From Coriobacterium glomerans PW2 (GTDB lineage Bacteria > Actinomycetota > Coriobacteriia > Coriobacteriales > Coriobacteriaceae), in the NCBI RefSeq assembly GCF_000195315.1, contig NC_015389.1, positions 2,046,001 through 2,110,000 on the forward strand: a stretch of 64,000 bases of DNA. The letters run 5' to 3'. The notes under the pieces were generated by a model, which had not been told where the DNA came from, did no database searches, and worked only from the letters and a program-made list of their open reading frames with translations. Below, piece after piece: positions 3,199-54,988 of the stretch. The translations under genes and the position numbers were made by a program. Positions within the stretch are counted from its first letter, which is position 1. The number at the start of each line of letters is the position of its first letter.

Positions 3199-3948
3199 CT
3201 ACGCCTCCTTCGCATCGAGATCGGTCGTGATGCCCGGTATCACCTTGGCGCGAGGTCTGCGCTTTGATCGACTCTCAAGCACTTGAACGAGTATGGCCAG
3301 CGGAAAGCAGATGAGGAAGTACAGGGCGCACGCCATAATGTAACCCTGCAGAAATCCAGAACTCGAAACGAAGTTATCTGCCTGGTACATGAGATCTCCG
3401 CCTGCTATGAGCGCCAGCACCGATGTGTTCTTGATGAGATTGAGAGCCTGGTTGCACAACGGTGGCAGGATCATCTTGAACGTCTGCGGCAACACGATAT
3501 AGCGATATGCCTGCGCGCGAGAGAACCCCTGGCTGCGAGCCGATTCGAGTTGACCACGGGGCACGCTCTCGATGCCGGTCCGAATGACCTCGGCCACATA
3601 GGCGGCATGATAGAGGCCGACGCCAAGGGAGCCGATGGCGAACGGGGCTATGCGCACCGGGGTCGCAGCGCCGAGAATCGCCTGGAGGATCTGCGGGCCC
3701 GCCATGTACATGAAGAAGATCTGCACGGGCAGTGGGGTATTCTGATAGAACTCGACATAGATGCGGCTGATCGCACGCAACGCCCGCGAGCGGGTCGTCG
3801 AGAACACGCCGAGCAGCGTCCCCAGAATCATCGAGAGCGCAAGGCCCGCCACCGAGACCGCAAGCGTGAAGAAGAAGCCCTCCCAGAATATATCCATCTG
3901 AGTGAAGAGCAAATGCCAGCGATTGGCACTCAGAATTCCTTCAAGCAT
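3199..3948 (-). CDS. Amino-acid ABC transporter permease (first subunit)
   Basis: 249 residues from the ATG at 3948, which follows GAAAGGAG. It has an N-terminal hydrophobic segment (GFFFTLAVSVAGLALSMILG), the HisM/GlnP signature FYQNTPLPVQIFFMY and the EAA loop SARSQGFSRAQAYRYIVLPQ. The C-terminal tail is basic (RSKRRPRAK). It forms a heterodimer with the permease encoded just downstream. The 106-base gap after the substrate-binding gene contains no convincing terminator, so the block reads as one operon. Confidence 0.9.
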   Translation of the reverse strand: MLEGILSANRWHLLFTQMDIFWEGFFFTLAVSVAGLALSMILGTLLGVFSTTRSRALRAISRIYVEFYQNTPLPVQIFFMYMAGPQILQAILGAATPVRIAPFAIGSLGVGLYHAAYVAEVIRTGIESVPRGQLESARSQGFSRAQAYRYIVLPQTFKMILPPLCNQALNLIKNTSVLALIAGGDLMYQADNFVSSSGFLQGYIMACALYFLICFPLAILVQVLESRSKRRPRAKVIPGITTDLDAKEA

Positions 3949-4054
3949 CGTACTCCTTTCTGCAGGTCGCGCGAGATCGCGTCGCCGGTTTCGCATGCTT
4001 CGCGCAGCAGAGACGCAGCGATGCGGTTCCGCTGGCGCAGCGAGTGGAACCCGT

Positions 4055-4903
4055 CTAGATCAGCTTCCACGTCTCGGCTTCTTTGTCGAGCCAACCATCA
4101 GACTTGAGGTCCTTGACGGTCTTGGCTACGACCGGCGAGAGGTCGGATCCCTTTTTGCTCGCTATCCCGTACTCCTGCGGTCCGAACTTGATATCCTCGC
4201 GCAGCAGCTCGACCGAATCGTCCATATAGTTCTTGAGCGTCGAGCGATCCATTGCGAACACGTCGACGTTGCCGGCATCGAGCGCGCTTTTGAGTGATGG
4301 GTAGTCGGGAAACTCCTGATATGTGGGCTTGGCGTCCGCCTTCTGATCGGCGAGCATCTTTGTGATGGCAGCTTTTGTATCGGAGCCCTGCGACACGCCG
4401 ATGACCTTGCCATCGAGATCGTCCAAGTCTTCCATGCCGCTGCTCTTCTTGACCATCATGCCGACGTAATCGGTGCGATAGGGCTCGGAGAAGTCGTAGG
4501 ACTCCTTGCGCGTATCGGTGATCGTGTACGTGGCGCAGATGATATCCAAGTTGTCGTTATCGATGAGCGGTCCGCGCGTCTTGGGCGTGACATCCTTGAA
4601 CTCAACGAGATCCTTCTGCTTGGCCTCCTCATAGGAGACCTCAAGCACCGATGCCGCGACCTGATAGCACAGATCGATCTCCATGCCCTCGTACTTGCCG
4701 CTGGCGGGGTCGAGATAGCCATAGCCCGGTACGTCCTTCTTGACACCGGCCTTGAGCTTGCCTCGGCTCTTGATCGCTTCGATCTTGGAGGATCCGGATC
4801 CCGAATCCTCCCCGCATCCGACGAGCGAGCCTGCTGCCGCCACACCGATCGCAGCCATTCCGAACATCTCGATAAATTGTCGACGTGAAACACTCATGAG
4901 CAT
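4055..4903 (-). CDS. Amino-acid ABC transporter substrate-binding lipoprotein
   Basis: 282 residues. The N-terminus reads MSVSRRQFIEMFG, then a hydrophobic stretch and the lipobox LVGC. SRRQF resembles a twin-arginine motif, so this may be a Tat-exported lipoprotein. The mature part is an SBP_bac_3 fold: LKAGVKKDVPGYGYLD, YEGMEIDLCYQVA, DIICATYTIT and RKESYDFSEPYRTDYVGMMV are typical of glutamate/glutamine/aspartate binding proteins. GGAGG lies five bases before the ATG at 4903; an ATG two codons later is also possible. It captures polar amino acids outside the membrane and delivers them to the permease pair encoded downstream. The exact substrate is not readable. Confidence 0.92.
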   Translation of the reverse strand: MLMSVSRRQFIEMFGMAAIGVAAAGSLVGCGEDSGSGSSKIEAIKSRGKLKAGVKKDVPGYGYLDPASGKYEGMEIDLCYQVAASVLEVSYEEAKQKDLVEFKDVTPKTRGPLIDNDNLDIICATYTITDTRKESYDFSEPYRTDYVGMMVKKSSGMEDLDDLDGKVIGVSQGSDTKAAITKMLADQKADAKPTYQEFPDYPSLKSALDAGNVDVFAMDRSTLKNYMDDSVELLREDIKFGPQEYGIASKKGSDLSPVVAKTVKDLKSDGWLDKEAETWKLI

Positions 4904-4983
4904 TGCTCCCTCCAGTCAGCTCGGAGAAGTCCGAGAACGGACATGATCCGAGGTATGCGGCGCACATGCGCCGAAAGACCATA

Positions 4984-5715
4984 TCAGTGCAGTATCTTGG
5001 CCAGAAACTCCCTGCACCGGGGGTTCTGGGGATTGGTGAAGAAGTGCTCGGGTGTTCCGGTTTCCAGAATCTGACCGTCATCCATGAAGATGACCTGGTC
5101 AGCGACCTGTCGAGCGAAGTTCATCTCGTGGGTCACGCAGACCATCGTGATGTTCTCATGCGCGAGCTCGATCATGACATCGAGCACCTCCTGAATCATC
5201 TCCGGATCGAGCGCGGAGGTCGGCTCGTCGAACAGGATGATCGGCTGCCTCGTGCACAGGGCGCGAGCAATCGCGACACGCTGTTGCTGACCCCCTGAGA
5301 GGTTCTGGGGGTACTCTCCGGCCTTCTGTGCCAAGCCGACGCGCCTGAGACTCTCCATCGCGATCTCGTTCGCCTCTTTTTTGCTCTTCTTCTGTAGCTT
5401 GATGGGTGCCAGAGTCAGGTTTCCGAGCACAGTCATATTCGGATAGAGATTGAATTGCTGAAACACCATAGAGGAGTATTTCCGAGTCATCTGAAGGTGA
5501 TTCTTTTTGGTGATCAGCTGACCGGCTATCTTCACGGTACCGCTCGTCGGCTCCTCCAAGAAGTTCACGCATCGGATGAGGGTCGACTTGCCTGAACCGG
5601 ATGGCCCGATGACGACGACCTTCTCCCCTTCATCGACGCGCAAATTCACGTCTTTGAGAACATGCAGGTCGCCAAAATACTTGTTGAGCCCTTCAAGCTC
5701 GATCATCACAGGCAT
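4984..5715 (-). CDS. Amino-acid ABC transporter ATP-binding protein (GlnQ/HisP type)
   Basis: 243 residues. Walker A is GPSGSGKSTLIRC, the Q-loop follows at VFQQFNLYPNMTVLGN, the signature is LSGGQQQRVAIARAL, and Walker B is IILFDEPTSALDPE. VCVTHEMNFARQVADQVIFMDDG and the end GTPEHFFTNPQNPRCREFLAKIL are characteristic of polar amino-acid importers. The ATG at 5715 has AGGAG five bases upstream. It is the first gene of a five-gene operon (ATPase, binding protein, two permeases, kinase-like protein). The promoter should lie in the 357-base gap upstream. Confidence 0.93.
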   Translation of the reverse strand: MPVMIELEGLNKYFGDLHVLKDVNLRVDEGEKVVVIGPSGSGKSTLIRCVNFLEEPTSGTVKIAGQLITKKNHLQMTRKYSSMVFQQFNLYPNMTVLGNLTLAPIKLQKKSKKEANEIAMESLRRVGLAQKAGEYPQNLSGGQQQRVAIARALCTRQPIILFDEPTSALDPEMIQEVLDVMIELAHENITMVCVTHEMNFARQVADQVIFMDDGQILETGTPEHFFTNPQNPRCREFLAKILH

Positions 5716-6072
5716 GAGCGCTCCTCTCGCGATCGACTATGAACTCGCCCAAGATATTCTGGTGTGATGCGAACACACGCCCTTGACGCCTCTGCGCTTC
5801 CTCACAAGGGTCTCCGGCAGATCCCATGTCTGCCTCCAGTGCGACCGATCGTGATCGACCGGAGTGCCCTACCGGGCATCTTGAACATTTCTTCGAGGCG
5901 ACCCCGGGCAAGGTCATGATTTGGTCAGTATACCCCGCGGGTCGATGGGTAAGCACTTTACCATGCGGAGGCTATTGCGCGCAAGTCCAGCGAAACGAAG
6001 TGCCGTCTCGGCAACAAGTTGGCAACATGGGCGCAGCACGTCTCGCAAAACGTCCCCATGAGCATCTGGCGA
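5716..6072 (-). promoter_or_regulatory. Leader/promoter region of the amino-acid transporter operon
   Basis: No convincing gene. On the minus strand the best -10 candidate is TATACT (5927-5932); a suitably spaced -35 (5950-5955, TGCTTA) is poor. The roughly 200-base leader contains a small hairpin with arms at 5816-5821 and 5829-5834. No T-box or amino-acid riboswitch consensus was recognised. Confidence 0.35.
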
Positions 6073-6516
6073 TCAGGAAAGTCGCGATGAAATCTGTTTT
6101 GCTGCTTGGGCCTTGTCAAAGTCGCCGCCGGTCCGCTCGGCGAGCGCACCCATCACGCGCCCGGTGTCTCTGCGCGTCCGCGCACCGATCTCATTGATTG
6201 TCTGATCGACGAGAGCGCGCAGTTTCTCGCCCGAAACCTGTTCGGGGAGAAGCGATTCAAGAATCGAGACCTGCTCGGCGAGTCGAGCGGTGCGCTCTTC
6301 ATCGTTGCCGGCTCTCTTGGACATCTCGAGGGTCTCCCCGGTCTGCTTGATGAGCCGCTTGATCATGTTTGAGACATCCTGCTCGGTGATATCGCGTCTC
6401 TCGTTCACCTCGATGTTTCTCAGCTCGCCCATTACCTGTCGAACGATGGACAGGCGCGTCTTGTCCTTCGACTTCATCGCGGCGATCATCTCGTTGTGCA
6501 GCTCGGTGCCTGTCAT
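6073..6516 (-). CDS. GatB/YqeY domain protein
   Basis: 147 residues from the ATG at 6516, which has GGAG six bases upstream; a start four codons earlier (6528) is possible but has no such site. The N-terminal helix HNEMIAAMKSKDKTRLSIVRQVMGELRN and the C-terminal GRVMGALAERTGGDFDKAQA match YqeY, a small helical protein related to the tail domain of GatB amidotransferase. The length equals the family norm of about 147-150. Its cellular role is not settled; a tRNA-binding or amidotransferase-accessory function is inferred from GatB. It lies 31 bases after the foldase gene and is likely co-transcribed with it. Confidence 0.88.
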   Translation of the reverse strand: MTGTELHNEMIAAMKSKDKTRLSIVRQVMGELRNIEVNERRDITEQDVSNMIKRLIKQTGETLEMSKRAGNDEERTARLAEQVSILESLLPEQVSGEKLRALVDQTINEIGARTRRDTGRVMGALAERTGGDFDKAQAAKQISSRLS

Positions 6517-6547
6517 GTGCGACTCCATTCATGCGCTCGCCTCTCGA

Positions 6548-7762
6548 TCAGCTCGCGCTTCCGTTGTCGTTGGTTTTCTTCACGCCGTCCAGTGACACGT
6601 TGTAGGGTACATTGGAGGGCATATCGTTGATCTTGATATCTGCCTTGTCCACAAGATCGTCCTCCCAAGCCGTATACGCCTTGCTGGAGCTGTCCTTCTT
6701 GATGGTGTCGCTGATCTTTTCCTTCATGTTCTTCGGAATCTGATCGATCGAGTTCACGGTGCCGTCCACATGGAAGTAGCCGGTGCATCGGATGATATGG
6801 TATCCGTAGGTCGATTTCACCAAACCGCTCACCTGATCCGCAGCGAGATTGTTGAGAGCGTCTTGGTACTCCTTGACAAAGGTCGTGAGCTTGTCCCAGC
6901 CCACATCGCCCTTGTCCTTCTTGGAGCCATCATCTTCTGAGTACTTCTCTGCGGCGTCCTCGAATGTGAGCTCACCGGAGTTGATCTTGTCAAGCACCCC
7001 TTGCGCCTTTTCCTTTACCTTTGCATCCGACTGCTCATCGGCACCGGATTCGATCTTGAACAGGATGTTCGAGGAGCGGCGCGCATCGTTGTACTTTGAG
7101 ATATCCTTGTTCACGTAATCGATGATATCCTGATCGCTCGGATCCTTCTCTGGTGCGACCTCCTCCTTGAGCTTCTTCTGCATGAGGCTGTTTCTGATCG
7201 AGCTCTTATAAGACGCCTCGGTCATGCCCATCTTCTTGATCTGATCGATGAAGGCCTGCTCGGAGTCGTATTTTTTTACCTGATCCTTCCAGTCATCATT
7301 CAACTCATCATCCGAAACGGTAATGTCATGCTTCTTCTCGGCATCCTCGATCAGATACTGCTTCGCGAGACTCTTGATCTTTGTCTTGCGCAGCTCCTCG
7401 GGGGTCTGATTGCTGTCTACGAGGTACTTTGCCCATTTTTCGTCGGTATCGTATTTGCCGCCCTCTTTCGTCTGCATGATCTGCTCTGTGATCGAATCCT
7501 CTTTGATGTTGACCCCGTTCACCGTTGCGGCGACGCCACCGGTCAGCTCATAGGACTTCTTCGTCTTGGCCTGATTCATGATGCCGGCGCATGCCATCGT
7601 GGTGACCGACAGCAGCATGGCGAAGACACCGATGGCGACGAGGACGATCTTGACGATTCTGCCGACCTTCTCGCGATGCCCGTCCCTGACGCCGGGCTTG
7701 ACGAATGCGCGAAAGGTCGCTGACTTCTCATGCCGCTGGCGAGCTTTTCTTTTCGTTACCAT
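6548..7762 (-). CDS. Membrane-anchored parvulin-type peptidyl-prolyl isomerase (PrsA/SurA-like)
   Basis: 404 residues from the ATG at 7762 (GAAGGA seven bases upstream). A basic N-terminus is followed by one hydrophobic segment at about residues 38-60 (IVKIVLVAIGVFAMLLSV). The rest is a very charged outside part. A SurA_N-like helical region (VNGVNIKEDSITEQIM, ELRKTKIKSLAKQYLI) precedes a parvulin domain at about 230-325. That domain contains RRSSNILFKI, FEDAAEKYSEDD, GDVGWDKLTTF and STYGYHIIRCTG. Unlike PrsA, no lipobox is present, so it is anchored by a transmembrane segment. It probably helps fold secreted or wall proteins. Confidence 0.85.
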   Translation of the reverse strand: MVTKRKARQRHEKSATFRAFVKPGVRDGHREKVGRIVKIVLVAIGVFAMLLSVTTMACAGIMNQAKTKKSYELTGGVAATVNGVNIKEDSITEQIMQTKEGGKYDTDEKWAKYLVDSNQTPEELRKTKIKSLAKQYLIEDAEKKHDITVSDDELNDDWKDQVKKYDSEQAFIDQIKKMGMTEASYKSSIRNSLMQKKLKEEVAPEKDPSDQDIIDYVNKDISKYNDARRSSNILFKIESGADEQSDAKVKEKAQGVLDKINSGELTFEDAAEKYSEDDGSKKDKGDVGWDKLTTFVKEYQDALNNLAADQVSGLVKSTYGYHIIRCTGYFHVDGTVNSIDQIPKNMKEKISDTIKKDSSSKAYTAWEDDLVDKADIKINDMPSNVPYNVSLDGVKKTNDNGSAS

Positions 7763-7901
7763 GAACAAGTCCTTCGTCTGCTCGAGTTCGCATTGCGATC
7801 ACCTTGCACTGCGAGCTATTGTCGCACATCGCCTGAGCATGAACTCTGATTTGAAGTAGATACCCAAAACACCAGAAGACCGACTCGCGCGCGAGCCATG
7901 C

Positions 7902-8657
7902 TCATCGAGGATCGATCGCCACCGTGAGATCGCCGCGCACATGAACCCTTCCCTCGGCGAGAAGCTGCACCGTATCCGGATAGAGACGGTGCTCGACCTC
8001 GTGGATCGCGGCCTCGAACGCCTCGAGATCCATGTCCTGGCGGATCCGCACGGGCTCTTGGGCGATGATGGGACCCTGATCGTAGTCCGCGTTCGCAAAA
8101 TGGACGGTCACACCGCTCACCTTGACACCGCGTGCGTAGGCCTCCGCGATAGCATGAGCCCCCGGAAAGCTCGGCAGCAGCGCCGGATGTATGTTCACGA
8201 TGCGATTGGGCCACAGTGCGAGCAGGGGCTCGTGAACCCGACGCATGTAGCCGGCCATGATGATGTACTCCGCCTCGAGCCTGCGCATCTCGGTTGCGAT
8301 CACCTCATCGGCATCCCACGGATCGGCATCGTAGATCTCCTTGGACAGGGCGAGGGTCTGGATACCCGAGCGTGCCGCACGCTTGAGTCCGCCCGCATCG
8401 CCTCTGCTCGAGACCACGAGCACGATCCGGGCGTTGAGATCCCCTCGATCGATCCGGTCGATGAGCGCCTGCAGGTTCGTGCCCGACCCCGAGATGAGCA
8501 CCCCGATCTTCAGAGGATCGCTCACGGGCGTGCCCGTGGGCCGCGAGAAGGGTGCCGAGCGGCGCTCCAATTCGATCATATCATCCTCGAGAGCGGCGGC
8601 ATCCACGTCGCCTCCGGGCTCGACTCGGGTGAAGATCCCCGCGGGGGCGTCGCTCAT
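7902..8657 (-). CDS. purN: Phosphoribosylglycinamide formyltransferase (GART)
   Basis: 251 residues. It transfers a formyl group from 10-formyl-tetrahydrofolate to GAR, the third step of IMP synthesis. The core begins at about residue 49 with KIGVLISGSGTNLQALID. The catalytic segment NIHPALLPSFPGAHAI supplies the Asn and His, and the formyl-folate loop is VTVHFANADYDQGPIIAQ. About 48 residues precede the usual PurN start. A shorter start is possible, but the ATG at 8657 overlaps the purM stop as ATGA, which supports translational coupling and the long form. It follows purM in a purF-purM-purN order. Confidence 0.93.
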   Translation of the reverse strand: MSDAPAGIFTRVEPGGDVDAAALEDDMIELERRSAPFSRPTGTPVSDPLKIGVLISGSGTNLQALIDRIDRGDLNARIVLVVSSRGDAGGLKRAARSGIQTLALSKEIYDADPWDADEVIATEMRRLEAEYIIMAGYMRRVHEPLLALWPNRIVNIHPALLPSFPGAHAIAEAYARGVKVSGVTVHFANADYDQGPIIAQEPVRIRQDMDLEAFEAAIHEVEHRLYPDTVQLLAEGRVHVRGDLTVAIDPR

Positions 8658-9769
8658 CTGTACACCACCTGCGCTCTCTCACCGGGATGACCCTCGATGA
8701 CGCGCCCCATGGGAAACGGCTTGATGCCGCGCTCTTGAAACGCGGACGTGATCTTTGCCTCATCGTCGGAGTCGCACACGACGCTCATGCCGACCCCCAT
8801 GTTGAATGTCTGATATGCCTCGTCGGGAGTGAGCGCGGCAGCTTGGATGATGCAGCCGATGACGGCCGGTACCTCCCAAGCCGGGTTGTTCGGCGCGGCA
8901 CCGCGCATGACCTCGGCGCAAAGCCCGTTCGGGATCGCTCGAGCGAGATTCTCCGTGATGCCGCCGCCGGTGATGTGGGCCATCGCATGTATAGGCGAGC
9001 CATCGGCCAAGACCTCTGTAATCGCGCGCGCGTAGATCGCAGTCGGAGCCATTACCGCGTCGGCCATGCTCTGGCCGCCGAGATCGGCGCGAGGCCGCAT
9101 CAACTCGGCAGCCTTGGCAGATGCCTCGGGCGTACCAGGCTCGATGCCGACGGTGCCCAAAACGCGTCGTACCAGCGAATAACCATTCGAGTGGATACCC
9201 GAGCTCGGCAGACCGAGTATGACATCCCCCGCGTGCACGCGATGCGAACCGAGCATTTTGGGCCGGTCGACCGCACCGACGCAGAAACCGGCGAGATCGT
9301 AGTCGTCCGGTCTCATGACACCGGGATGCTCGGCCATCTCGCCGCCGATGAGTGCGCAGCCCGCCATGCGACAACCGCGCGCGATACCCGAGATGACCCG
9401 GGCGGCTTGAGTCGCGTCGAGTTTTCCGGTGGCGAGATAATCAAGAAAGAACAACGGCTCGGCACCGGAGGGCACGATGTCGTCGACGCACATGGCGACG
9501 AGATCTTGACCGACGCTGTCATGCCGACCGAGCAGCTGGGCCAAGGCGAGCTTCGTGCCGACACCGTCGGTACCGGACACGAGCACGGGATCCTCCATCC
9601 GCTTCAACGCCTCGGCTGAGAACAGGCAGCCGAAGCCCCCCAGACCACCGATCACCTCGGGGCGCGCGGTGCTGGCCGCGCACGCCCGGATAGCCTCGAC
9701 CGCCCGGGCGCCCTCGACCACATCCACACCAGCTTGGGCGTAGGTAACGTGCTCAGTGCTCTCGCTCAT
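8654..9769 (-). CDS. purM: Phosphoribosylformylglycinamidine cyclo-ligase (AIR synthetase)
   Basis: 371 residues from the ATG at 9769 (AGAGG seven bases upstream). It makes AIR from FGAM and ATP in the cytoplasm. Family marks in order: YAQAGVDVVEGARAV, DPVLVSGTDGVGTKLALAQ, CVDDIVPSGAEPLFFLDY, CALIGGEMAEHPGV, GLPSSGIHSNGYSLVR, and HITGGGITENLARAIP towards the end. Its stop overlaps the purN start by four bases. A 95-base gap separates it from purF upstream; no clear promoter was found there, so one purF-purM-purN transcript is likely. Confidence 0.96.
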   Translation of the reverse strand: MSESTEHVTYAQAGVDVVEGARAVEAIRACAASTARPEVIGGLGGFGCLFSAEALKRMEDPVLVSGTDGVGTKLALAQLLGRHDSVGQDLVAMCVDDIVPSGAEPLFFLDYLATGKLDATQAARVISGIARGCRMAGCALIGGEMAEHPGVMRPDDYDLAGFCVGAVDRPKMLGSHRVHAGDVILGLPSSGIHSNGYSLVRRVLGTVGIEPGTPEASAKAAELMRPRADLGGQSMADAVMAPTAIYARAITEVLADGSPIHAMAHITGGGITENLARAIPNGLCAEVMRGAAPNNPAWEVPAVIGCIIQAAALTPDEAYQTFNMGVGMSVVCDSDDEAKITSAFQERGIKPFPMGRVIEGHPGERAQVVYR

Positions 9770-23551: not shown

Positions 23552-24505
23552 TCAGGAGTCGCTTTGCTCGAGCGTCAGCACCATGACGGTTCTATCGCTT
23601 GTGGGGATCTCGCTGCTGCAGGTGATGAGCGAGAGCACCTTCTCTGTCGAGTCCAAGCGCTCTTCCGCATCAGGAGCCTTCGCCTTCGCGCTTTTCATGA
23701 TGTCCCTCAGATAATCGGACAGAGCACCGTCACCGATGAAGGTCCGCGCGCGCGCCTTCGAATAGGAGTCGGGAACCACAGCGGTGAGAAGGGGCCTGAG
23801 TTTGGAGGTCCCTTCCCGGGTAATATAGTAGGCGATCGTGATCTTATCAAAAGCCGCCTGATCGGTCGTATCGTTCACCTGATAGAACATCGTCTTGTTG
23901 TTCATGTGGTGTCCATACAGCGATGTCTGCTGATCAATCATGCCCGGCGAGGTGCAAGACGCGTCCATGAAGATCGATCCGGAGGGATTCTTCTTCCCGT
24001 CGAACAGCGTCGTCAGGTACTTCTCGTTGTCGGACGCTTGAGCGACCGGGTAGTTGATGTTCGTACCGGGAATGTAGATCCAACCGACGATCTCCGGATT
24101 GATAGCGTTCAACTGGTCGAAATCAACCTTCGGCGGAACGTCGTCGTCACCCTCTGAGATGTGGGCGTACTTCGTGAGACCGCTATAGGAGTCGACCGCC
24201 TCGTGATAGCCCAGCTGCGCGGAGATGAAGATGTACGCCGCCGCGCCCGCGAGCGCGAGACCCACCAAGAGCAGCAGCGTCGAGACGATGCGCCGATTTC
24301 CGCGCGGGCGACGTCCGCGGTGCGGATCATCCGCACATGCGTGAGCGGACCTCGCGTGCGCGCCGCAGCTTGACCGACGCGGCATCGGTGCGAGCCCTGA
24401 GGAGCGGGCGTGACGCGGCGCGTCAGCGCTCTGAGCTGTACCAAAGGTGCTGCCAGCGCGTCGGCCATCTGGGTGCGCGAACCTCTTTGGCTGATATGCT
24501 CCCAT
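23552..24505 (-). CDS. Class B sortase
   Basis: 317 residues. An unusually long, basic, low-complexity head of about 72 residues precedes one transmembrane segment at about 74-93 (VSTLLLLVGLALAGAAAYIF). The catalytic domain follows. The sortase triad is visible: His in SLYGHHMNNKTMF, Cys in SLITCSSEIPTSDR and the Arg in the same stretch. Spacing and motifs fit class B. Such enzymes attach wall proteins or pilins at an LPXTG-like signal outside the cell. AGAGG for the ATG at 24505 lies inside the end of purE, 11 bases away, so it may be translated from a purE transcript. No substrate gene adjoins it. Confidence 0.88.
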   Translation of the reverse strand: MGAYQPKRFAHPDGRRAGSTFGTAQSADAPRHARSSGLAPMPRRSSCGAHARSAHACADDPHRGRRPRGNRRIVSTLLLLVGLALAGAAAYIFISAQLGYHEAVDSYSGLTKYAHISEGDDDVPPKVDFDQLNAINPEIVGWIYIPGTNINYPVAQASDNEKYLTTLFDGKKNPSGSIFMDASCTSPGMIDQQTSLYGHHMNNKTMFYQVNDTTDQAAFDKITIAYYITREGTSKLRPLLTAVVPDSYSKARARTFIGDGALSDYLRDIMKSAKAKAPDAEERLDSTEKVLSLITCSSEIPTSDRTVMVLTLEQSDS

Positions 24506-49904: not shown

Positions 49905-52900
49905 ATGGTAAGAAGAGCCCGTCCGCGACGGTTTCGCATCCCGCGAGGCATCTGTGCGCTAGCTGCGAGAAAGATCCTGCTCGTCACAGCCGCCACCCTG
50001 ATCGCAAGCGGCATGATGCTGGGCGACCTCAATGCTGCGCCGTCTGCGCGCGGCGAGATCGCCGTCCCGATAGACAGAGCTCTCGGTGCCACCCGATCGG
50101 TCGAGGAGGTGCTCGAATCCCATCTTGCCGACAATTGCTATCTGGGAACATCCTATGGAACCATCGCCCCGGGCAGCTTCGGTGACTTCAGCACCATCGA
50201 CAGCTGGGACTGCAGATACCCGAACGGACGACCCAAGCCCGGGGTCGGCGGCTATATGAACTGCGCCGGCTTCGTCTCCTCGGTGCTCACCGAGTGCGGT
50301 GCCGACGTCTCGCCGATCGCGAATTTCGTCGCCGCCAACGGATACCGTCGCGGCAACGACACGAACGCATTCAAATGGAACCTCTACGTCTCCGAGAAGG
50401 GATTCGCAGCGGGCAGGTTCGCCACCAAAGAGCAGATGCTGGCTTCGGGCATACTCAAGCGAGGCGATATCATCTACATAAATCCCGTCGACTTCACCGG
50501 CTCCAATGATTGTCACATGGGATTCTTCTGGGGAAGCAGAAGCGACGAGGACCTGTTCTGGCACTCCGCGTTTCACGGCGACGGTCTCGTCGCAGGAGCT
50601 CAGCCGGGAAACATGATCTCGCGCATCACACCTAAAAGCCCCGCGACCTATTATCTCGTGATCAAGACGCAGCACGATGTGGATGTAGCATTCGACAAGG
50701 TGTCAGCTGACGCGTCCTTTACCGATGGGAACTCGCAATACGCGCTCGCAGGTGCAGAGTATGATATCTTTTGCGCCGAGAACGACGCCATCGCGGGACA
50801 CATCGTGACCGACGGGAACGGCCACGCGAAGCTGTCGCTGTCGCCGGGAATTCGCTATTACGCTGTCGAGACGAAAGCGCCCAAGGGTTTCAAGATCGAT
50901 ACGAAACGATGGTATTTCACCGCGAGCGAGGGCGCTGACGTGAACATGCCCGAGGAGCCCGGACGGGTTCTCTTCAAGATCGTGAAGCTGGATGCGACCG
51001 GCAAGATCCAGATCGGCGCGGATCTCAGCGGAGCGACCTATCGACTCGTGGACGCCAAGGGAAGATCCCAGGAGAAGACGACCGATGTCTCGGGTCGGCT
51101 CGCATTCGATGCCGTGCCCTTGGGGAGCATCACCGTGACCGAAACCAAGGCGCCCGAGGGATACCGCCTCGATACCAAGGTGCATTCCTATCAGATCAGC
51201 GCAGACGACCTGTCAGTCGAAGGCGAGGCCGTAATCGAGCCGAAAGATGACTTCGCCGAGATTCCCCTCGCGTTCGATCTGGAGATCGCAAAATTCAAGG
51301 GCGGCGGCGATGACGCCGCACAAGATGACAGCTCCGGACATGAGCAGCCCGCAGCAGGTGTGGTGTTCGAGATCATCTCCAATGCATCGGGCAAGGCGAT
51401 CGGATCGATCGCAACGGGGGCTGACGGATTCGTGGACACGGCCTCAGATCCGAATCTATGGTTCGGACAGGGAGAGCGCGTCGTCGGCATCGCGGGAGCC
51501 ATACCTTATGACCGCGCGGGCTACAGGGTCCAAGAGGTCGCGTCGACCGTGCCGGATGGATTTGACCGCGTCGGAGAGTGGTCCATCACACCGGAGCAGA
51601 TGCTCGACGGGGTCAAGCTTCGCTACATCTTGGACGACGAGCGGATCACCTCGAGTCTCAAGATCGTGAAGACCGATGCCGAAACGAACTCCCCCGTTCC
51701 GCTGGCCGGTTTCACGTTCCAGATACTCGACGAAGACGGTCATGTCATCCATATGGTCGATCCGTATCCGAGTCCCACCGAACTCGATGCGTTCACCACG
51801 GACTCCTCAGGCAGCGTCACCTTACCTGAACGGCTTTCCAGCGGACGCTACCGGATTCGAGAAATCGCTTCGAGCGCACCGTACCTCATCGGCGACATCG
51901 AGGTCGAATTTGAGATCCCCGCCGACTTCAGGAAAGCCGCGCCGATCGTCGTCGTCGAGTTCCCCGACAGTCAGGCTATGGGGCGAGCGGCCATCACAAA
52001 GACCTGCGCTGAGGAGAAGTCCGCCACCGATGGGGGAGCCGGCGGATCCGATTTCGACAACGGCTGCGCCAAAGCGCTGGCCGGTGCTCAATTCGATGTC
52101 AAGGCGGTGCACGACGTCGTGGGGCCCGACGGCCGCGTGCGCGCCCTCCAAGGAGAGATCGTCGATCATGTCACGACCGATGAGGACGGGCTCGCCACCA
52201 CCAAACCGCTGTATCTTGGATCGGGCAGCGCCGTATACGCCTTCATCGAGACCGTGGCACCCGCCGGTCACGTGCTCGACGACACGCCTCACGAGGTGAC
52301 GCTCACGTACAAGGACGCGAGGACCCCGATCGTGAGCGCGGGCACCGACGTGGATGATGCCCCGACTCGGACGGTCATCGAGAAGACCGGCAGCGATGGA
52401 TCCGCCCTGGCAGGAGCGACGTTCGCGCTTTGGTGCGCCGATGACGAGATCGACATCACACCGGACGCCGAGACCGGAGCGATCGCGCTGCTGGCACCGG
52501 ACGCGACCGGCATTCGTCTGCGCGCGAGCAGCGAGGACGACGCCGACCCGCGCGCAGACGATGCGAGCACCTTCGTGGAGCTCGAACGAGACAAGCAGAC
52601 GGGATACTGGCACGCAGAGCGACTCCTGCCCGATGACTACGAGATCATATCGAGCGGGCCGGCAGGCGGGGATGATCGAGGGACCGATGAGGACGGGGCC
52701 GCTGAGACCAAAGCGGGCTCCGTGCAGATCATGCCGGGGCGCGTGAGCTACGGCAGTTTGGAATCGGGGTCATACCGATCGCTTCCCGTCCTGCTTGCGG
52801 ATAACGCCCAGCCTGATGAACTCACCACCGACGACAGCGGCCGAATCTTCATCGGCCACCTGAGGGCCGGCTCCTACCGCATCGCCGAGACGGCGGCGCC

Positions 52901-54245
52901 TCCGGGATATCTCATCGACGCCGAGCCCAGATCCTTCACCGTAGATGATCGCGGCCTCACCGAGGGCATGCCGATCTGGACGATCAGAATCTCGGATGAT
53001 TGCACCAAGCTGGCTATCTCAAAACGAGATATAACCGATGAGCAGGAGCTGCCGGGGGCGACCCTGTCGATCTTGGACGAGAATCGCGACGTCGTCGCGA
53101 CATGGGTCAGCGGTGGGGATCCGCACCGCATAGACCGGCTCGCACCGGGGAGCTATACCCTCATCGAGACGATAGCGCCTCACACGTACGACCAGACAAC
53201 CGAGGTTCCCTTCAAGGTGGAGCCGACCGGCGAGATACAGCATGTCATCATGTACGATGAACCGATCGCTGTTTCCGGTGGGATCGATGTGCGGCAGGAG
53301 ATCGCGCGGCCCACCGCAGCGGGAAGTCGGCCGAACGGCGACGGACGAAATCGCGCCACCGTGAACCAACGCGACGACGGGCGCTATGCATGCAGCTTCG
53401 ACTTCCGCAGCACCTCCTCCACTTGGGTGGATGAATTCACCGTCGAGTGCTCCTTGGATGCCGTCTCAGCGGGCGCCTCAGAACTCGAGCGTCTCATCAC
53501 CCCGCGTGCGCGAGGTGACTACGATGGCAAGATGAACGTCTGGTTCAAGACGGACGGACACGTCGATGGCAACGAGGCGCAAGCGGCTAACGCGTCGCGA
53601 TCTGATGGCCATGTGAATCCATGGCTCGATGACGACTCCACCTCCTCGACACTTGGAGATGACGGTCGCGCGCTTGACTACACGGGCTGGAAGCTCTGGG
53701 CAGCCGACGTCTCGACCGACAGGTCAACCGAACTCAAGGTTTCCGACCTCGGTCTCGCGAGCGGCCAGCGGATCGTCGGGGTGCGCTTCGAGTACGGTCG
53801 CGTGGATGCGGGGTTCACCACGCGCGCAGGTGAATGGGACCGAGATGATATCAAAGATCCCCATGACGACCTTGACTGGATCGGAGGCGACCGGGGAGGC
53901 GATTCGCACGGAAGCGATCGGAACGAACTCGCCGGAGCCGTTTTGCATCTGCGCGCGGGCGCCTCATACACCGAGGGCGTCGCACTGAACACATCGGGCA
54001 GGGTGGATCTGTATCGCAACGGAGGCGGAGACGACCTCGAGGACCATGATACGGATCGGGTCACGCAGACGCCGGGAACCGTTGCCGTGCCCCTGCCGCA
54101 AACCGGGGCCGCTCCGCTCGCTTATGTTACATGCGCCCTCAGCGCCACAGCGGCATCGGCGGCCTGCCTGATCGGTCTATGGCGTCATCGGACGCGGAGC
54201 GGCGGAGTGGGAAGGGCAGCCCGACGGCGACGGCGCGCGACGTGA
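49905..54245 (+). CDS. LPQTG wall-anchored protein with NlpC/P60-like and Cna-B modules
   Basis: 1446 residues. A basic head and hydrophobic segment (about 22-40) form the export signal. Residues 75-250 look like an NlpC/P60-type cysteine peptidase: C120 in MNCAGFVSSVL, RGDIIYINP, and H204 in DCHMGFFWG. From 255 to about 1120 come seven or eight Cna-B/SpaA-like beta modules. Their lysine strands (IVKLD, IVKTD, ITKTC, IEKTG, ISKRD) and E-containing strands (VTETKAPEGY, IETVAPAGH, IAETAAPPGY, IETIAPHTY) suggest internal isopeptide bonds. Residues 1155-1375 form an extra domain of unknown kind. LPQTG at 1397-1401, a hydrophobic stretch and a basic tail complete the sorting signal. The next gene is a sortase coupled to it. 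Domain calls are from motifs only. Confidence 0.85.
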   Translation: MVRRARPRRFRIPRGICALAARKILLVTAATLIASGMMLGDLNAAPSARGEIAVPIDRALGATRSVEEVLESHLADNCYLGTSYGTIAPGSFGDFSTIDSWDCRYPNGRPKPGVGGYMNCAGFVSSVLTECGADVSPIANFVAANGYRRGNDTNAFKWNLYVSEKGFAAGRFATKEQMLASGILKRGDIIYINPVDFTGSNDCHMGFFWGSRSDEDLFWHSAFHGDGLVAGAQPGNMISRITPKSPATYYLVIKTQHDVDVAFDKVSADASFTDGNSQYALAGAEYDIFCAENDAIAGHIVTDGNGHAKLSLSPGIRYYAVETKAPKGFKIDTKRWYFTASEGADVNMPEEPGRVLFKIVKLDATGKIQIGADLSGATYRLVDAKGRSQEKTTDVSGRLAFDAVPLGSITVTETKAPEGYRLDTKVHSYQISADDLSVEGEAVIEPKDDFAEIPLAFDLEIAKFKGGGDDAAQDDSSGHEQPAAGVVFEIISNASGKAIGSIATGADGFVDTASDPNLWFGQGERVVGIAGAIPYDRAGYRVQEVASTVPDGFDRVGEWSITPEQMLDGVKLRYILDDERITSSLKIVKTDAETNSPVPLAGFTFQILDEDGHVIHMVDPYPSPTELDAFTTDSSGSVTLPERLSSGRYRIREIASSAPYLIGDIEVEFEIPADFRKAAPIVVVEFPDSQAMGRAAITKTCAEEKSATDGGAGGSDFDNGCAKALAGAQFDVKAVHDVVGPDGRVRALQGEIVDHVTTDEDGLATTKPLYLGSGSAVYAFIETVAPAGHVLDDTPHEVTLTYKDARTPIVSAGTDVDDAPTRTVIEKTGSDGSALAGATFALWCADDEIDITPDAETGAIALLAPDATGIRLRASSEDDADPRADDASTFVELERDKQTGYWHAERLLPDDYEIISSGPAGGDDRGTDEDGAAETKAGSVQIMPGRVSYGSLESGSYRSLPVLLADNAQPDELTTDDSGRIFIGHLRAGSYRIAETAAPPGYLIDAEPRSFTVDDRGLTEGMPIWTIRISDDCTKLAISKRDITDEQELPGATLSILDENRDVVATWVSGGDPHRIDRLAPGSYTLIETIAPHTYDQTTEVPFKVEPTGEIQHVIMYDEPIAVSGGIDVRQEIARPTAAGSRPNGDGRNRATVNQRDDGRYACSFDFRSTSSTWVDEFTVECSLDAVSAGASELERLITPRARGDYDGKMNVWFKTDGHVDGNEAQAANASRSDGHVNPWLDDDSTSSTLGDDGRALDYTGWKLWAADVSTDRSTELKVSDLGLASGQRIVGVRFEYGRVDAGFTTRAGEWDRDDIKDPHDDLDWIGGDRGGDSHGSDRNELAGAVLHLRAGASYTEGVALNTSGRVDLYRNGGGDDLEDHDTDRVTQTPGTVAVPLPQTGAAPLAYVTCALSATAASAACLIGLWRHRTRSGGVGRAARRRRRAT

Positions 54246-54988
54246 GCGGGCGGCATCAAACGACGGATCGCGGAGATCCGAGACGGAGAGTCCTTCTGTG
54301 CGCCGCGACGCTTCTCGCGCTGGTCTCGGTTGAAACCTGCTCGATCCAAGCTTCATTCCAGCAGATGGCGCAGATGCACAACACCGGGGTGGACGCCGAA
54401 TCGACTCGATACCGCGAGATTCAAGGAACGCGGGGCGATGCGGTGCCCGAGATGCCCCGCATCCTTGTAAGGGGGACCGAGATAGATTATTCCATCGCGC
54501 AGGATCGCAGCGATCTCGCAGATGGCTTCTTCCTCTCCCATGACCCCTCGGGCGCACCAAGGCGATCCGGGTGCCCCTTCATCGATCGCAGAAGCTCGCT
54601 CGACGCTCGTCACATTCTCATATACGGCCACAATCTCGGTGCCGGTTCAGGTATGTTCTCCGAACTTGAAGATGCATGGCACCAAAGAATTCTTGAAGCG
54701 ATCGGTGATGCGGTGCTCTATCTGCCTGATGGAACCACGACGGAGTTCTCCCCGATATGCGCCGAGCGGGTCAACGAGAGGTATGCCGATGTGCAGCGTT
54801 TCGGATTCAGCGATGAGGCCGACTTGCGCGAATGGGTCTGCTCGATCGCACGCGAGTCCCAAGCCGCCATAGCCGACTGGCACAAGACCGCGGGGAATGC
54901 CAGACGGGTGCTGACACTGGTCACGTGCTCATCTGCTCGCCCATCCGAGCGGCTGCGAACCCTGATCGTGTTCGCAAGCTCAACATGA
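54242..54988 (+). CDS. Class B-like sortase, coupled to the LPQTG protein gene
   Basis: 248 residues from the GTG at 54242, which overlaps the upstream stop as GTGA; the frame is open to 54131, where ATG starts lack a binding site. A basic head leads to one membrane segment at about 14-34 (VLLCAATLLALVSVETC). The triad is visible: His in HILIYGHNLGAG, Cys in TLVTCSSARP and an Arg in SERLRTL. Gene position makes the adjacent LPQTG protein its likely substrate. It differs strongly in sequence from the sortase at 23552. Confidence 0.85.
   Translation: MSGRHQTTDRGDPRRRVLLCAATLLALVSVETCSIQASFQQMAQMHNTGVDAESTRYREIQGTRGDAVPEMPRILVRGTEIDYSIAQDRSDLADGFFLSHDPSGAPRRSGCPFIDRRSSLDARHILIYGHNLGAGSGMFSELEDAWHQRILEAIGDAVLYLPDGTTTEFSPICAERVNERYADVQRFGFSDEADLREWVCSIARESQAAIADWHKTAGNARRVLTLVTCSSARPSERLRTLIVFASST

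Follow-up and report, generated by a model that had tools for sequence, protein, structure and literature searches.

The locus comprises two adjacent genes within a 64,000-nucleotide stretch (hereafter the window) of the genome of Coriobacterium glomerans PW2, which is a single contig of 2,115,681 bases and the sole genome of its genus in our sample. The first gene encodes P0001, a protein with a putative export signal in which an NlpC/P60-type head is followed by a stalk of SpaA/CnaB modules, a C-terminal domain (CTD) and a sorting signal; the second encodes a sortase (Table 1). The GTG start codon of the sortase gene overlaps the TGA stop codon of the stalk-protein gene (GTGA, position 54242). 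The corresponding genes overlap or nearly touch in many relatives too, and this recurrence supports translational coupling of the two. A preliminary description of the window had reported both open reading frames (a 1446-residue exported protein and a sortase), their GTGA overlap and an LPQTG signal, all of which are present as claimed; the domain that it left unassigned is real and characterises an entire family of stalk proteins (see below). A second sortase gene of C. glomerans PW2 lies on the reverse strand of the window (23552-24505; PF04203, 36.4 bits), and three further sortase genes are found elsewhere in the genome.

Table 1. Features of the stalk-protein gene and the sortase gene, in window coordinates
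Feature	Position	Strand	Basis
Stalk-protein gene P0001, 1446 aa	49905..54245	+	ORF, ATG start, AGGGGAG ribosome-binding site upstream
Putative export signal, approximately residues 1-48	49905..50048	+	Arg-rich start, hydrophobic core, AA/SA cleavage region
NlpC/P60-type head, residues 60-255	50082..50669	+	Profile against 4EYZ, model, fold matches, residue conservation
Candidate catalytic residues of the head	C120 50262-50264; H204 50514-50516; H220 50562-50564	+	Conservation
Stalk, seven clear SpaA/CnaB modules, residues 256-1115, plus weak piece 818-881	50670..53249	+	Pfam SpaA; custom profile
C-terminal domain (CTD), residues 1141-1390	53325..54074	+	Conserved in 100 of 299 genomes of the order, 59 of 67 of the family
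LPQTG sorting motif, residues 1397-1401, then membrane segment and Arg-rich tail	54093..54107	+	Sequence, motif comparison
Class-B-like sortase, 248 aa, GTG start	54242..54988	+	SrtB structure matches; sub-cut-off TIGR03064 and PF04203

A Pfam search of P0001 returned no NLPC_P60 (PF00877) match for the head, and relatives of the head match PF00877 only under its 23-bit cut-off. The head used as a single-sequence query already matches PDB entry 4EYZ (E = 0.0013), and a 24-row profile does so at E = 3.3e-18 with the Cys, the His and the third residue in register, a value at which the resemblance is not a matter of chance. 4EYZ is an NlpC/P60-type module of the Ruminococcus flavefaciens protein RflaF_05439 with a Cys109/His215/Gln230 triad; its active-site Cys is modified and protease activity was undetected (PMC3573020). 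An AlphaFold2 model of the head, built from a 55-sequence alignment, has a pLDDT of 93.5 and a pTM of 0.91, and its best solved match is likewise 4EYZ (Z 15.3; Foldseek, VIA-align). The next matches are peptidoglycan hydrolases (autolysins, LytE, CwlO and SagA) at Z approximately 10, with endolysins and CHAP-type domains also found by the same programs. C120, H204 and H220 align with C109, H215 and Q230 of 4EYZ. The papain-like fold that had been proposed for residues 75-250 is thus borne out by a confident model, by the match to 4EYZ and by the placement of the Cys and His on its triad; C120 and H204 stand where they had been placed, and H220 joins them as a third candidate. As modelled, the head almost certainly has an NlpC/P60 fold.

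C120 is kept in all 55 head relatives and H220 in 52 of them, across phyla, which indicates selection on the active site. Asp202, His204 and Phe208 to Gly210 belonged to the pattern by which loci were retrieved, and their invariance in the set of 55 is biased accordingly; the Cys and both His residues are also kept in a set of relatives retrieved by protein query, which is free of that bias. The head is predicted from its sequence to be catalytically competent, which we regard as probable, with hydrolase chemistry favoured because of the fold and the wall-hydrolase-like relatives described below.

The stalk accounts for the match of P0001 to Pfam SpaA (E = 7e-79). A custom profile resolves clear modules at residues 256-349, 353-441, 456-571, 580-679, 690-810, 921-1023 and 1031-1115, together with a weak eighth piece (818-881, E = 0.003), so that the 'seven or eight' Cna-B-like modules first counted become seven clear ones and one weak. 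Against the SpaH/EbpB pilin family (NF033902) the stalk scores 71.8 bits, below the cut-off of 95. The sequence of the CTD gave no useful match in Pfam or the PDB. Its model has a pLDDT of 59.6 and the top matches tie at Z 6-7 between pilus or collagen-binding sandwiches and unrelated proteins; we claim no fold for it.

We use the term chassis for the stalk, CTD and anchor together, and recognise it by the CTD. Chassis of this kind occur in 100 of the 299 genomes of the order and in 59 of the 67 genomes of the family Coriobacteriaceae, mostly in single copy, and on these counts of CTD sequences the chassis is a near-core surface-protein family of the Coriobacteriaceae. One genome (G164, C1) is an exception to the single copy, having two CTD-stalk-plus-sortase units (L190 and L198).

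The best solved matches of the sortase are sortase B entries (E = 7e-8 against solved SrtB structures). It matches TIGR03064, the sole NCBIfam sortase model listed, with 43.5 bits (E = 2.3e-11; cut-off 153.75), and PF04203 with 20.9 bits (cut-off 26.6), in both cases below the cut-off. A candidate catalytic set is formed by H130 (in YGHN), C229 (in LVTC) and Arg 237 or 239, the His and Cys of which align with those of the sortase B structure 5b23 and of Lmo2181.

The substrate preference of this sortase can be approached through the motifs of the chassis proteins. Gln occupies position 3 of the motif in 30 of 33 chassis proteins linked to a sortase (LPQTG, LAQTG, LDQTG, LFQTG, LEQTG and others) and in 2 of 21 unlinked ones (LPGTG, LPATG, LAKTG, LPDTG and others), with a Fisher p of 1.5e-9 that has to be read knowing that the bias was noticed in the counting data itself, that the motifs were read off the tails by eye, and that related species are not independent. 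A phylogeny-corrected comparison is underpowered, offering two independent pairs on supported branches; all 67 family genomes were already within the first sample of the motif comparison. The Gln bias is nonetheless the most direct evidence, at the level of sequence, of a preference of the sortase's own. The LPQTG of P0001 conforms to the pattern, and we consider it likely that P0001 is anchored by its own sortase.

The partner of this sortase appears to be the chassis. The same sortase type is encoded behind stalks that carry thioester-domain or other heads, and many of the best sortase relatives lie directly behind long SpaA stalks lacking an NlpC head; sortase relatives, counted with a permissive threshold that admits other sortases as well, occur in 237 of the 299 genomes. 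Conversely, the head-protein genes of Slackia, Olsenella and Enterococcus have no sortase gene beside them, which, for the head family, is an outcome that the preliminary description had named as refuting. Of the earlier interpretation, the NlpC/P60-like head, the CnaB stalk, the LPQTG signal and the adjacent sortase therefore stand, whereas the suggestion that the head is always paired with this sortase does not. As gene neighbourhoods indicate, the sortase belongs with the stalk, CTD and anchor, and the head is an exchangeable part. At five loci (L143, L147, L148, L152 and L155) a secreted protein of approximately 430-545 aa is encoded immediately 5′ of the sortase, and at the first three of these its ORF separates the CTD stalk gene from the sortase gene; the unit may thus have this protein as an additional partner.

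The head itself is present in 43 of the 299 genomes of the order, and its named relatives include those of Collinsella, Slackia, Olsenella, Tractidigestivibacter, Lachnospiraceae, Enterococcus and Vagococcus. Two architectures recur. In the first, the head is N-terminal on stalks of SpaA and/or T-Q ester modules, frequently with a sorting signal; in the second, it is C-terminal, behind wall-binding repeats of the ChW, choline-binding or SLH type. One GW-tethered and one dockerin-like head protein are also found among the relatives, as is a 1459-aa protein of Oscillospiraceae bacterium MH27-2 (L105:9011-13390) in which the head is accompanied by an M23 peptidase, an SH3 domain and eight SpaA modules; sortase-like genes lie 2.3 kb and 3.1 kb downstream of its gene. 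By domain content, the ChW, choline-binding, SLH, GW and M23/SH3 company of these relatives is that of wall hydrolases, and the variety of architectures suggests that the head is an enzyme-type module brought to the surface on many unrelated tethers. Viral contigs yielded no relative of the head and thus nothing that points to a phage origin. In uncultured Collinsella (L036/L067) a frameshift or an assembly error has divided the head-stalk gene between two ORFs (3901-6549 and 6428-8725) that overlap and differ in frame, and a protein at L058:9624-10748, closely related to the intact one at L048:3604-7383, is cut to 374 aa just past the head.

What the chassis carries at its N-terminus varies between species. 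Among 59 chassis proteins examined for their heads, 7 have an NlpC head (one of them in a split gene), 29 a thioester-like head by profile, and 23 some other head, including at least 6 of the TED_2 type, so that thioester-domain-type heads total at least 35. Pfam TED or TED_2 is matched above the cut-off at L145, L146, L160, L163, L164, L165, L167 and L169; the head at L158 is a sub-threshold TED, and further stalks are TED-like by custom profile. A thioester domain in P0001 was considered and rejected, there being no TED match in Pfam.

The closest view of the exchange comes from the chassis protein at L142, which has a thioester-like head and aligns with residues 252-1431 of P0001 at 47% identity over 1202 aa. 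The alignment begins at the border between head and stalk, and identity in the head region (18-28%) is at background. On a tree of CTD sequences the NlpC label requires at least three changes, and a topology constrained to a single clade of all NlpC-headed chassis is rejected by a narrow margin (p-AU 0.038; long branches are a caveat). It is very likely that the head has been exchanged as a module on a shared chassis. Several thioester-like chassis heads (L142, L143, L147, L148, L149, L158, L174, L181 and L184) keep the Cys and have A, T or M at the position of the thioester Gln (ATQxAxW), and many of these heads may thus be unable to form a thioester.

We read the locus, with moderate confidence, as a two-gene fibrillar display unit with an enzyme-type tip and its own sortase. 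In the mechanism that we propose, the sortase would cleave the LPQTG motif and link the stalk protein to the wall, whilst the CnaB modules would stiffen the stalk through internal cross-links. The head would be a working cysteine amidase or peptidase; its target, attacked through an acyl-enzyme at C120, would be an amide or peptide bond located beyond the own wall of the bacterium. Its likeliest substrate may be a peptidoglycan-type peptide, on a neighbouring cell or on the own wall at contacts, an assignment that we hold to be evenly balanced; alternatively, the substrate may be a protein from the host or the diet. Such a fibrillar enzyme would have arisen by head exchange on a chassis that presents a thioester-family head in many relatives. 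Both the stalk and the thioester-family heads on the shared chassis support an action at a distance from the own wall, and the sister chassis with thioester-type heads favour a function at some target surface.

The same fold matches, at Z approximately 10, to autolysins, LytE, CwlO and SagA, and the head relatives on ChW, choline-binding and SLH repeats or in the M23/SH3 fusion, would also suit an autolysin, that is, a D,L-endopeptidase or amidase trimming its own peptidoglycan and merely retained at the wall by the sortase. We consider this unlikely, as the head is the part farthest from the anchor, past seven modules and the CTD, and a long stalk that keeps it off the own wall is a poor fit with such a function; moreover, many relatives with the same stalk bear thioester-type heads, which serve no wall turnover. 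Alternatively, the class-B-like sortase might polymerise the stalk protein into a pilus-like homopolymer with the head repeated along the fibre, as the class B sortases Spy0129 (PMC3019223) and the SrtB of the AbpA ladder (PMC4974636) polymerise their substrates, and in keeping with the weak similarity of the stalk to SpaH/EbpB pilins. That similarity remains below the family cut-off, however, the unit holds no additional pilin gene, and the stalk protein has the length to project even as a monomer, all of which make polymerisation distinctly unlikely.

NlpC/P60 and thioester-adhesin chemistries both involve a Cys acyl thioester. For the thioester adhesins, this group is described in PMC4450167. 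Together with the adduct on the Cys of 4EYZ (PMC3573020) and the position of the head, at which other copies of the chassis bear thioester-type heads, the shared chemistry would be consistent with a covalent adhesin or transamidase, in which C120 acylates amines of the host or of a neighbour's surface and so replaces the thioester head in its job. If true, an NlpC/P60 covalent adhesin would be a second evolutionary solution to the task of thioester domains on the same stalk-plus-sortase chassis. We nevertheless find it improbable, since amine acylation is shown for no NlpC/P60 member in the evidence examined, the head relatives occur in wall-hydrolase contexts, and the sequence gives no sign of transfer over hydrolysis. 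A non-catalytic, ligand-binding tip, for which RipD (from the title of entry 4jxb) and the lack of detected activity of 4EYZ (PMC3573020) are precedents, is improbable too, given the Cys in every one of the 55 heads and the third His in all but three, across phyla.

Each component of the fibrillar display unit is of a known kind. The head shares with 4EYZ its fold, the Cys/His/third-polar register and a surface-bound setting, provided by a dockerin in the 4EYZ protein (PMC3573020). The third residue is Gln in 4EYZ and His in the head, and the 4EYZ protein has tandem modules and a dockerin where P0001 has a single head, a CnaB stalk and a sorting signal. TIE and other thioester adhesins (SfbI, CpTIE; PMC4450167, PMC6194298) resemble P0001 in having a tip head, a CnaB-type stalk and a sorting signal, but P0001 has an NlpC/P60 head and no thioester domain, whilst its sister chassis carry TED or TED_2. 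The fibrillar enzymes of Monzon and Bateman (PMC9210967), like P0001, combine a stalk of repeat domains with a domain related to enzymes instead of an adhesive domain; P0001 goes beyond them in its cognate sortase and in the head exchange, and the main text of that paper mentions neither NlpC nor CHAP.

A two-gene unit in which a surface adhesin gene precedes the gene of its anchoring class B sortase is known from AbpA-SrtB of oral streptococci (PMC4974636), although AbpA is a small coiled-coil protein with LPKTS and a short tail, and lacks both a CnaB stalk and an NlpC head. Spy0129/SrtC1 of Streptococcus pyogenes (PMC3019223) is, like the window sortase, of class B with CnaB-type substrates, and attaches the adhesin Cpa, but its recognition motif is EVPTG and its locus is a multi-pilin one. 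We found no description of an isopeptide stalk with an NlpC or CHAP head in the open-access literature, covered mostly at the level of titles and abstracts, and NlpC is absent from the main text of a survey of isopeptide bonds (PMC12617251). Within that literature, two things appear to be new: the combination of an NlpC/P60 head, an isopeptide stalk and a class-B-like sortase, and the exchange, on a single near-core chassis, between an NlpC head and heads of the thioester type.

The scattered occurrences of the 4EYZ-type domain, in Coriobacteriia, Lachnospiraceae, Enterococcus and Vagococcus, are joined by this analysis into one surface-displayed family. The Coriobacteriaceae are a common gut family, and their surface fibre would be a chassis with its own sortase and interchangeable tips, thioester-type in many species and enzyme-type in others. 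The swap of one domain would offer a testable route by which a bacterium passes from gluing to cutting, and chassis with the same stalk and different heads would form a naturally matched set for measuring the effect of each head.
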